A program made the position numbers and the translations under genes. Positions 29,911 to 32,857 of a stretch of 32,857 bases of DNA are shown here, piece after piece; the stretch's first letter is position 1; every line of letters begins with the position of its first letter. The notes beneath the pieces are model-generated. The model had not been told where the DNA came from. It made no database searches and worked only from the letters and a program-made list of their open reading frames with translations. This stretch comes from Oscillatoriales cyanobacterium (GTDB lineage Bacteria; Cyanobacteriota; Cyanobacteriia; Cyanobacteriales; Microcoleaceae): positions 1 through 32,857 of the forward strand of contig RDXH01000010.1 of assembly GCA_004292745.1 (NCBI GenBank). Direction: 5' to 3'.

Positions 29911-30810
29911 ATGCTCAAACAAAGCGATTTTGTGAGAAATTCAGAAACTAATCGAGTAGAAGTGCTTTCGGAAGCACTCCCCTACATTCAACATTTTGCA
30001 GGCCGCACGATTGTGGTAAAATATGGCGGCGCTGCCATGAAAGATAGCAATCTCAAAGATCAAGTAGTTCGGGATATTGTATTGCTATCCTGTGTGGGGA
30101 TGCGTCCGGTTGTGGTTCACGGTGGCGGCCCAGAAATTAATACTTGGCTGGAAAAATTAGGAATTGAGCCCCAATTTAAGAATGGTTTGAGGGTGACAGA
30201 TGCGGCGACTATGGAAGTTGTCGAGATGGTTTTGGTGGGGAAGGTAAATAAGGAAATTGTTTCGCTAATTAACCAAGCTGGCGGTAAGGCTGTGGGTTTG
30301 TGCGGCAAGGATGGTAATTTGATTCAAGCTCGTCCTGATGGCCGGGAGGGGATTGGGTTTGTGGGTGAAGTCAGTGGCGTCAAAATCCAGATTTTGGAGT
30401 CTTTGGTGAACAGCGGATATATTCCGGTGGTGTCGAGTGTGGCTGCGGATGAAAATGGTCAATCTTATAATATTAATGCCGATACCGTAGCTGGAGAAAT
30501 TGCGGCTGGTTTGGGTGCTGAAAAGTTGATTTTGATGACAGATACTGCTGGCATTTTGGAGGATTATCACAAACCCGAAAGTCTGATTGTGAAGTTAGAT
30601 ATTCAAGAGGCTCGACAGTTAATTGAGTCTGGGGTTGTTTCTGGGGGGATGATTCCCAAGGTTACTTGTTGTGTGCGGAGTTTAGCTCAGGGTGTGAAGG
30701 CTGCTCATATTATTGATGGCCGTCTTGAACACGCTTTGCTGCAAGAGATTTTCAGCGATTCGGGTATTGGATCGATGATTGTTGCTTCGGAGTATAGTGG
30801 GACGAAGTAA
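29911..30810 (+). CDS. argB: Acetylglutamate kinase
   Basis: This enzyme phosphorylates N-acetylglutamate, the controlling step of arginine synthesis, and in cyanobacteria it is activated by the PII signal protein. The 299 residues show the phosphate loop [25 protein letters not shown], the substrate part [20 protein letters not shown], and [20 protein letters not shown]. The N-terminal helix ([20 protein letters not shown]) before the kinase core is the segment found in arginine-inhibited forms. It stands alone on its strand with its own hairpin terminator 20 bp after the stop codon. Confidence 0.97.
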
Positions 30811-31245: not shown

Positions 31246-31322
31246 GAGATAGAGGGCGATCGACCCCAAAGACAAGTTAAATTAAGCTAGGAACCCTTAA
31301 AATTGTTGTTGTGTAAGGGATA

Positions 31323-31342
31323 CGGAGAGGGTGGGATTTGAA
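31323..31342 (-). other. tRNA-Ser 3'-end fragment, probable attachment site
   Basis: On the minus strand this reads TTCAAATCCCACCCTCTCCG. It has the order of a T-loop (TTCAAAT), the T-stem 3' arm (CCCAC), the acceptor 3' strand (CCTCTCC) and the discriminator G that is typical of tRNA-Ser. No matching 5' acceptor, T-stem partner or anticodon region lies nearby, so it is only a fragment. A tyrosine recombinase gene begins 156 bp to the right, as expected for an attachment site at one end of an integrative element. The tRNA body would then lie at the other end. Confidence 0.6.
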
Positions 31343-31376
31343 TTAGCGCTTAGCTCTCAATTTACCATTTTCCGTC

Positions 31377-31426
31377 CTTCTAGCTCATTCCTTGGCTCAC
31401 CCTAGAAGTCCTATTTCATCTTCTAG
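31377..31426. repeat. Three CTTCTAG/CTAGAAG heptamers upstream of the recombinase gene
   Basis: CTTCTAG occurs at 31377-31383 and 31420-31426, and its complement CTAGAAG at 31402-31408. The short, repeated, mixed-orientation sites between the tRNA fragment and int resemble arm-type binding sites of integrases. Confidence 0.4.
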
Positions 31427-31489
31427 CGAAAACTGAGCGACTCGCTGTAGGCTGGATGCAGACAACAAACTCAACAATGCTACATCTCA

Positions 31490-31511
31490 GAGCGAAAAAT
31501 GAGCGAAAAAT
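31490..31511. repeat. Tandem GAGCGAAAAAT repeat over the recombinase start codon
   Basis: Two perfect 11-bp copies adjoin; the ATG (31499-31501) spans their junction. A partial copy (TAGCGAAAA, then GAGCGA) lies at 31425-31439. It could bind a regulator that controls the recombinase gene. Confidence 0.4.
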
Positions 31512-32857
31512 TTAATTCAGTCACACTAAGTACCAGCGCCGACTATCTTATTGGGTACGAGCGGATTCTGGACTACTTCAAGCAAGCGCAAAAAGAATGC
31601 CCCAAAGCAGTAGGTTTGAAAAAAGATAGCAAAGCTAGTGGTAGTTACATAACACTACAATTCAAGCTAGGTAACAAGCGGGTCAATAAAACCTGTGGGT
31701 GCTACTTGACAATGCAAGGGATTACCGAGTCTCTAAAAAAGGCTCACTTAGTCGCTATAGCTCTAGAATCGTTGAGAACCGAGTCTCAGTTTTTAGCATG
31801 GTATGATGACACAATCCTAGAGAAAAACATCATCAAAAATGATTTAATGGTGTTTAGTGAGGCTATCGCAAAAGTAGAAAAAGAGTATTGGAACGGATAC
31901 ACCAAACGTCGTCAACAGCGTGACAAAAACAATGTTAGCCACCAGTACAGTTGGCGATGTGTCTACGGACACTATTTTAAGTTATTGCCACAAAACACAG
32001 TCGTAAACCTTGCAGATATTCTGCTGGCAGTTCACAGTAAGCAAAAAGGAACTAAATGTTTCAAAAACTGCCTGTGTGCTATGCGTAAGCTTGCTGAAAC
32101 AATTGGTAATTCCGATATACTTAGTTGTCTTAAAGAGATTGATGGTACGCAGACGCAGTTCAGAGAAGACCTTCAGTCTATATCGGTTGATGAATTTTTG
32201 AAGTTTTACGAAGAAGTTTTAGCTATTTCAGGCGATAAGCGATATCATTTAGAATCACGCAAGCGATGGCTGTGGGTATTCTCAATGCAGTTAGTGTATG
32301 GCTTTCGAGTACATGAGGTGTTTGCTGTTCAGAATCTCAACGAACCATTCAAAACAAAAGACGGCATTACGATTCCGGCACTATCTGAACTAAGTAATGC
32401 AAAAATGATTGCCGTAGTTGGAGAGAGGACAAGGCTAGACACGACAACCAAGACTGGCTACCGATTGTGTGTACCAATGCTTCCCCCTACTCATCCTGAT
32501 TTAATTGAGTGCTTGGGAATTAAATCAGGACAATTGCCTGATATTAAGTTGACATCGAGCAATTCAAAGACAATTTCTGGTGCATACAATGACCGTGCAT
32601 GGGCTACGCTGAAAAGATGGAATAAAGGCTTTACTCAGTCTCATGCGTTACGCCACTTGGCAAATTTCAATGGTCAAATGGCGGGGATATCTCAAGAAAC
32701 CAGAGCTAAAAGTTTAGGTCATTCAACTCAGATGAATGAAGGGACTTATAAAAAACGGGCTAATACCGAAACGACAATCAACTTGCTGACTCAATCTACA
32801 AAGGAAGCTATTCCTGTAGGTAGTGCAATTGAGGTACTTAAACAGTTGGGTAGTGAC
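31499..32857 (+). CDS. int: Tyrosine recombinase (phage/element integrase type), 3' end outside the window
   Basis: The frame is open for 453 codons to the last base of the window, with no stop codon. It starts MSEKFNSVTLSTSADYLIGY. The N-terminal 225 residues form a large Lys-rich region probably used in DNA binding. The catalytic part carries R270 (VYGFRVHEVFAV), H382 and R385 (SHALRHLANF), H408 (SLGHSTQMNE) and nucleophile Y417 (EGTYKKRA), the complete tyrosine-recombinase set. The gene looks active so far. Its codon use and Lys content differ from the core genes to its left. The tRNA-Ser fragment just upstream points to site-specific integration at a tRNA gene. Confidence 0.9.
   Translation, partial: MSEKFNSVTLSTSADYLIGYERILDYFKQAQKECPKAVGLKKDSKASGSYITLQFKLGNKRVNKTCGCYLTMQGITESLKKAHLVAIALESLRTESQFLAWYDDTILEKNIIKNDLMVFSEAIAKVEKEYWNGYTKRRQQRDKNNVSHQYSWRCVYGHYFKLLPQNTVVNLADILLAVHSKQKGTKCFKNCLCAMRKLAETIGNSDILSCLKEIDGTQTQFREDLQSISVDEFLKFYEEVLAISGDKRYHLESRKRWLWVFSMQLVYGFRVHEVFAVQNLNEPFKTKDGITIPALSELSNAKMIAVVGERTRLDTTTKTGYRLCVPMLPPTHPDLIECLGIKSGQLPDIKLTSSNSKTISGAYNDRAWATLKRWNKGFTQSHALRHLANFNGQMAGISQETRAKSLGHSTQMNEGTYKKRANTETTINLLTQSTKEAIPVGSAIEVLKQLGSD

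Follow-up and report, generated by a model that had tools for sequence, protein, structure and literature searches.

The right-hand end of this contig raises the question of whether a tyrosine recombinase gene beside an orphaned tRNA 3′ end marks the edge of an integrative element and, if so, into which tRNA gene the element was inserted and where its other end lies. The window, which is the whole stretch of 32,857 nucleotides that was analysed, is contig C150 of the draft genome G000 (408 contigs) from the same genus group as Microcoleus vaginatus HSN003. Positions 31323–32857 are very probably the integrase-side end of an approximately 9-kb integrative element of Microcoleus, inserted into the T-loop of a tRNA-Ser gene, with its far end most likely on contig C169. 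The features of the junction are as follows.

29911–30810, plus strand: amino acid kinase gene (PF00696) of the host flank, which we take to be argB; synteny with relatives extends to 31298
31299–31322, no strand assigned: 24 nucleotides separating the argB flank from the tRNA fragment, their origin uncertain; absent from the argB locus of the relatives compared
31323–31342, minus strand: displaced tRNA-Ser 3′ end from the T-loop start to the discriminator base, the core of the displaced-fragment attachment site
31343–31498, plus strand: attachment arm on the integrase side, nearly constant in length and containing GAGYGR direct repeats; 156 bp from the fragment to the ATG
31499–32857, plus strand: type A tyrosine recombinase (integrase), 453 codons read, with the C-terminus beyond the contig end

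The minus strand from 31342 to 31323 reads TTCAAATCCCACCCTCTCCG, and it is identical in 20 of 20 nucleotides to the last 20 nucleotides of both tRNA-Ser(TGA) and tRNA-Ser(CGA) of the genus. By simple arithmetic, approximately 3e-6 exact matches in the window to any of about 45 tRNA ends are expected by chance. No whole tRNA was detected in the window by ARAGORN or Rfam, and no Rfam families were found in it either. The initial annotation had described a tRNA-Ser 3′ fragment without a tRNA body 156 bp from a recombinase gene, and the exact match bears this out. A displaced 3′ tRNA fragment beside an integrase gene in the correct orientation, by which tRNA-integrated genomic islands are recognized, is thus present in the window.

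The arrangement recurs in related loci. The integrase family of the window is called type A here, and type B denotes a second integrase, a match to PF00589, that is found on a similar backbone (C331). Twenty-six loci with a type A integrase, including the window, one tandem pair, and one near-identical pair, were searched for an upstream tRNA 3′ end with a T-loop-like start. Such an end with zero to three mismatches is present in 23 loci (15 exact, three with one mismatch, three with two, and two with three). The fragment begins 153–157 nucleotides from the integrase start in 22 of these 23 loci, and 92 nucleotides from it in L055. Of the remaining three loci, the contigs of L045 and L054 begin too close to the integrase gene, and L057 lacks the fragment. 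Ten tRNAs are represented among the 23 fragments: Ser, Arg(CCG), Arg(TCT), Pro(CGG), Leu(TAG), Lys(CTT), Val(GAC), Val(CAC), Thr, and Met.

Contig C150 breaks off inside the integrase frame, at 32857; therefore, the far end of the element cannot be read in cis. The closest intact relative of the window integrase is 477 residues long. The recombinase with all catalytic residues that had been annotated initially (R270, H382, R385, H408, and Y417) is confirmed, because these positions are invariant in all 14 aligned sequences, that of the window included; K318, which was absent from the earlier list, is likewise invariant. In a more diverse alignment of 17 rows, R270, K318, R385, and H408 are invariant, Y417 is conserved in at least 90%, and H382 is replaced in some distant rows. 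The catalytic R-K-H-x-x-R-H-Y set of the tyrosine recombinase superfamily is present in the window integrase.

No integrase model of Pfam, PHROGs, or NCBIfam is matched by the window integrase at the thresholds used, and neither this protein (P0001) nor that of L043 has any hit to PF00589. The homologue L032 matches PF00589 at 35.7 bits (cut-off 27.1), and L033 and L227 match it below the cut-off; of the four integrases L032, L033, L227, and L228, three were scanned against this model, and all three match, one of them above the cut-off. As the sole query, P0001 finds a protein of genome G037 (E 1.8e-15) that matches PF00589 above the cut-off. The comparison of a profile of 17 family members with a profile of the four integrases gives 99.9% with an E value of 7e-32. 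The conserved catalytic residues, the homologues matching PF00589, and the profile–profile match together identify the predicted protein as a divergent tyrosine recombinase. Its AlphaFold model is poor, with a mean pLDDT of 47, and is confident only at residues 21–109 approximately. Within this part, residues 38–91 are modelled as three strands and one helix, which would suit an arm-binding domain. A fold search with the model found nothing at E 0.001 or better, the best E value of a PDB profile search with the integrase was 0.02, a plasmid search yielded nothing useful, and the phage collection contained no match. Two peptide patterns of the integrase were used to scan viral contigs, and none of 34 stretches was confirmed.

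The anatomy of the complete element can be seen in relatives. The order is a displaced tRNA 3′ end, approximately 155 bp, the integrase gene, small genes, a gene for a large replication protein, a small RHH-like gene (present in seven of nine elements by the author's reading), a gene for a coiled-coil protein of about 90 residues, and an intact tRNA on the opposite strand. In eight large elements of Microcoleus relatives, the distance from the integrase start to the intact tRNA is 7,966–10,626 bp, and in seven of the eight the displaced fragment fits the intact tRNA (six exactly and L050 with two mismatches; L057 has no fragment). The proposal that the window holds the integrase-side end of an element extending to the right agrees with these eight related elements, whose opposite-strand intact tRNA lies 8.0–10.6 kb away, inside the 200 kb initially allowed. 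The closest relative, L043, with an integrase 96% identical to that of the window, has both ends and sits at tRNA-Ser(TGA).

Gene content was compared in nine elements, one of which (C52) is a contig without the integrase end. Five of the nine genes of L043 recur in all nine. The large protein of L043 (1,027 residues), a predicted primase-helicase, matches DUF5906 above the cut-off, and the D5_N and P4-type primase models below theirs. A large protein of the DUF5906 type is a single frame of 918–1,027 residues in six elements; in L044 a transposase-like frame interrupts the large replication protein, and another large protein takes its place in L050 (1,011 residues) and C52 (1,036 residues). 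The L043 protein is nearest to plasmid proteins of Nostocales (48 plasmid records; 35–42% among the 15 matches listed), and it is weakly similar to primases of phages and satellites (33 records, none covering 80%). PHROGs matches of 10 proteins, nine from L043 and one type B integrase, comprise replication, integrase, and three families of unknown function; none of them is structural, and no phage packaging or hijack gene is recognized among the 10. The Pfam and NCBIfam matches of the nine L043 proteins include no relaxase. The initial suggestion that the cargo may hold defence genes gained no support, as none of 10 proteins from elements L043, L048, and L065 matches PADLOC. The large extra open reading frames of L044 and L065 look transposase-like by eye, and no metabolic cargo was noticed. 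Because no relaxase, capsid, or defence gene is recognized, the element, judged from its predicted genes, looks like an integrative plasmid.

The insertion point is indicated by direct repeats. Nine of the 13 loci that have both an integrase gene and an intact tRNA on the expected side contain a direct repeat including the tRNA 3′ end; the other four have no direct repeat of 12 nucleotides or more. In six of the nine, TTC, with which the T-loop opens, is also the exact start of the repeat. Of the remaining three, one starts a base earlier, one later owing to two loop changes, and that of L055 further 5′. In 13 elements, the motif GAGYGR is enriched at both ends, with densities of 18.7 per kb on the left and 9.2 per kb on the right, compared with 1.4 per kb in the interior of the eight large elements. 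The motifs are mostly paired 11 bp apart, at approximately −75/−64 and −9/+2 of the integrase start and at approximately −79/−68 from the tRNA; they are absent on the left of L072 and on the right of L052. The window has clear copies at 31435 and 31490, another at 31501 inside the gene start, and, as the decayed member of the usual set of four in the left arm, a copy near 31424. The pair spanning the start codon suggests that integrase binding may control the integrase's own gene.

A mechanism that would account for these features is the textbook one for tRNA-targeting tyrosine integrases. The recombinase would act on a circular form of the element, joining it to the chromosome at a point within the tRNA-Ser T-loop. 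The seven nucleotides of the T-loop would constitute the crossover overlap, the T-stem would provide the core binding sites, and the GAGYGR repeats at the two ends, including the one that overlaps the integrase start codon, would be arm-binding sites. The element would bring its own copy of the last 20 nucleotides of the tRNA, which would leave the tRNA intact at the far end, and the original 3′ end of the host tRNA would be displaced to the integrase end, where it is found in the window. The primase-helicase would replicate the element.

The left flank of the window does not fit simple integration. Homology with relatives ends at 31298 or before in the best matches, and synteny with the nearest relative, G018, stops at 31298. 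None of 26 argB loci of relatives (12 plus 14 loci, each searched with ARAGORN up to 1.5 kb past the match) has a tRNA beside argB. In G018, the sequence after argB corresponds to C195, another contig of the window's genome, and approximately 25 kb separate tRNA-Ser(TGA) from the argB flank, both being on the same strand. The argB site was therefore rejected as the original tRNA locus, and the earlier view that the left side is simply core genes beside that locus does not hold. Of the integrative-element end proposed initially, the fragment, the recombinase, and the position of the element to the right stand, whereas the original-site left flank and the defence cargo do not. Because the argB neighbourhood of relatives contains no tRNA, simple integration alone cannot explain the junction and at least one rearrangement must be added, and the synteny indicates that it is a rearrangement, not an original tRNA locus, that placed the fragment beside argB. 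A simple inversion between argB and a tRNA-Ser(TGA) site of the G018 type may have occurred, although C195, on the other side of the argB break, ends approximately 2.1 kb further in sequence that is IS-like by eye. This sequence (L141, G000:C195 9729–11873) has inverted ends and is located at the break of the argB locus, and the contig end resembles 5S rRNA by eye. Elsewhere in the window, the 12-kb segment 18865–30906, which includes the MreB, MreC, and amino acid kinase genes, has the opposite orientation to its counterpart in G018, and the sequence to the left of 18865, from 2258, is collinear with G018.

The 20-nucleotide fragment does not separate tRNA-Ser(TGA) from tRNA-Ser(CGA), and the assembly provides additional information. 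C150 and C64 have exactly 99 nucleotides in common at their ends, and C169 and C17 have another 99; C150 and C169 carry Ser ends, and C64 and C17 carry Arg(CCG) ends, as would fit two near-copies that were collapsed in the assembly. C198 joins C52 by 99 nucleotides as well, both being labelled Arg(TCT), with one mismatch in the C198 fragment. Apart from C150 itself, the last 100 nucleotides of the window are found in C64 and two diverged copies only, and no contig continuing C150 was found. Tyrosine integrases related to that of the window and the assembly overlaps, which pair C150 with C169, favour Ser(TGA). Through this presumed link, C169, which carries tRNA-Ser(TGA), is most likely the far end of the window's element.

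The 24 nucleotides between 31299 and 31322 argue away from Ser(TGA) and towards the Ser(CGA) site. They resemble tRNA-Ser(CGA) flanks bearing an element right end: against L111, L112, L116, and C331, only 0–4 of 500 shuffles score as high. These are four of 17 element-type flanks; the other 13 give at least 15 of 500, and 14 element-free flanks give at least 56 of 500. It is conceivable, although improbable, that the element is located in, or came from, the tRNA-Ser(CGA) site beside the remnant of another element, and that a rearrangement then joined this stretch to argB. Such an origin is compatible with the 20 nucleotides in which both tRNA-Ser genes end, and with the similarity of the flank to that of C331 and to three of six Ser(CGA) right-end flanks; however, the other three of the six give 21–127 of 500. 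Furthermore, the four integrases of the window's clade for which the site is known all have Ser ends, and three of the four adjoin an intact tRNA-Ser(TGA); in C215, tRNA-Ser(CGA) is followed directly by the right end of another element; and the 99-nucleotide assembly join points to C169.

An equally improbable alternative is that the window contains a dead remnant, a decayed integrase end that was carried to its position by chromosome rearrangement and is immobile. The rearranged flank and the decayed arm repeat would be expected of a remnant, and broken or stub-like element ends occur in the genus. By contrast, no stop codon interrupts the 453 codons of the integrase frame, none of its catalytic residues is missing, the fragment has no mismatch, and L043, the closest relative, retains both ends. 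A chance resemblance, or a tRNA pseudogene with an unrelated recombinase next to it, can be practically dismissed: the integrase has no Pfam, PHROGs, or NCBIfam match, but the same spacing occurs in 22 of 23 fragment loci at ten tRNAs, and the profile match to known integrases is strong.

The preferred assignment, an integrative element in tRNA-Ser(TGA), can be compared with empty and filled sites. At tRNA-Ser(TGA), C169 of the window's genome and G018 are 96% identical up to 3–4 nucleotides past the tRNA; beyond that point, C169 has the right end of an element, whereas G018 has sequence without it. The empty site that had been anticipated in relatives thus exists for tRNA-Ser(TGA), but not for the window's own left junction. 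At the same tRNA, G016 and G010 have what appears by eye to be a right-end stub. At tRNA-Val(GAC), the insertion is a 2-kb form in G018 and an element with the larger backbone in G000; the left flanks of the two agree (95.5% over 400 nucleotides). G004 contains two copies arranged head to tail, with 9,087 bp identical and a period of 9,055 bp, which suggest recent movement or duplication. After these tandem elements, and preceding an intact tRNA-Arg(TCT), there is a stub of approximately 127 bp (L062, G004:C4 about 270722–270849) with a displaced tRNA end and right-end arm repeats. In C64 (L008), at approximately 1510–1600, the displaced Arg(CCG) end is flanked by the apparent right end of another element, a layout that resembles, by eye, a tandem array or an attP-like junction.

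In the genome of the window, right ends of elements are found at Ser(TGA), Ser(CGA), Arg(CCG), Arg(TCT), Gly(TCC), and Gly(CCC); together with a displaced Val(GAC) end that has two mismatches, this gives seven occupied tRNA genes. The Ser(CGA) occupant is probably a type B element, to which it is linked through C331, since this contig carries the matching displaced piece. In C331 (L007) and C215 (L009), a backbone similar to that of the type A elements is combined with a type B integrase beside a tRNA-Ser(CGA) piece that extends to the anticodon arm; this arrangement is an integrase swap with a changed insertion point.

The integrase tree comprises 27 sequences, 25 with a known target: those of the window and L224 and 25 of 33 collected integrases, with the near-copies L051, L056, and L061, the broken L040, and the distant or partial L028, L031, L032, and L039 left out. 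The tree requires 11 target changes for 12 targets, which is the minimum. Shuffled target labels require 18.6 changes on average, and none of 200 shuffles was as low; the shuffles show only that the target label is clustered, because near-relatives share targets by descent. As read from the tree, integrase clades follow tRNA targets, with Val(GAC) occurring in two separate parts. Integrase matches are present in 20 of 59 genomes, the window's own included, and a distant member used as the query matches at E 1e-20 in 47 of 291 genomes and 23 of 121 genera of an order-wide sample. The class-wide search used an alignment (A2) that contains the type B integrase; therefore, its weaker matches lean towards ordinary integrases, and it served only to pick loci. 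The family is missed by standard integrase profiles and is spread into many tRNA genes of related bacteria.

Some members consist of little more than the integrase gene. The distance from the integrase start to the intact tRNA is 1.5–2.1 kb in L060, L070, and L052 from Microcoleus and in L072, L224, and L225 from other genera. The displaced piece is exact in L070, whereas that of L060 has two mismatches and that of L052 three or four; none was seen in L225, the contig of which starts close by. The integrase of L070 (G018) has an insertion of approximately 43 residues in its N-terminal part that leaves the frame unbroken. Twenty of 30 loci from the order-wide search, ten of the window's genus being left out, were also inspected: five have an intact tRNA downstream on the opposite strand, two of these with a displaced copy of at least 14 nucleotides, and the five include L254 and L255, which are the same insertions as L224 and L225. 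The nearly one-gene forms may be deletion derivatives. L060 and L070 are located at different tRNAs and have related right ends (69.5% over 197 nucleotides), and such shared right ends speak for a lineage that would move in the short form. A more far-reaching reading, which we offer tentatively, is that of an overlooked order-wide lineage in which the recombinase gene, the arm repeats, and a 20-nucleotide tRNA end would be a complete mobile unit. One-gene elements of approximately 2 kb would hop between T-loops, the 9-kb plasmid-like elements would be one lineage that gained a replicon, and retargeting would need only recognition of a new T-arm and capture of the last 20 nucleotides of the new tRNA.

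Several known systems share parts of this organization. P4-like satellites and PICIs also combine an integrase with a primase-helicase in approximately 10 kb; however, no packaging or hijack gene is recognized here, the primase-helicase is closest to Nostocales plasmids among the matches listed, the phage collection contains no match to the integrase, and the scan of viral contigs confirmed none. Tycheposons are known from work on Prochlorococcus. The elements described here share with them the cyanobacterial host, the tRNA border, and the tyrosine recombinase, but tycheposons are characterized as large and cargo-carrying (4–200 kb), whereas the backbone here is 8–11 kb and no metabolic cargo was noticed (PMC10872708). 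The islands catalogued by Islander, as presented in its description, have the same signature of an intact tRNA at one end, a displaced 3′ fragment at the other, and a tyrosine integrase between them, including the T-loop as a sublocation (PMC4383910). According to the same description, Islander finds integrases by PF00589 and drops candidates shorter than 2 kb (PMC4383910); by contrast, the type A integrase does not match PF00589, and some relatives are approximately 2 kb or less. In the archaea, a review attributes 14 tRNA genes as targets to the Thermococcales integrases of pT26-2-related plasmids (PMC8371274). Target diversification of one integrase lineage is, on that account, already known; the elements described here differ in their bacterial host and in the position of the integrase gene 156 bp from the attachment site. 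No elements of this kind from Microcoleus or other cyanobacteria were recognized in the literature searched, and a printed account may exist.

Integrase finders based on PF00589 would miss type A elements, even though seven tRNA genes are occupied in the genome of the window. The correspondence of clades to targets, with eleven changes in the tree, provides a natural series on how tyrosine recombinases change their specificity. If shown to move, the nearly one-gene forms would rank among the simplest of site-specific mobile elements.
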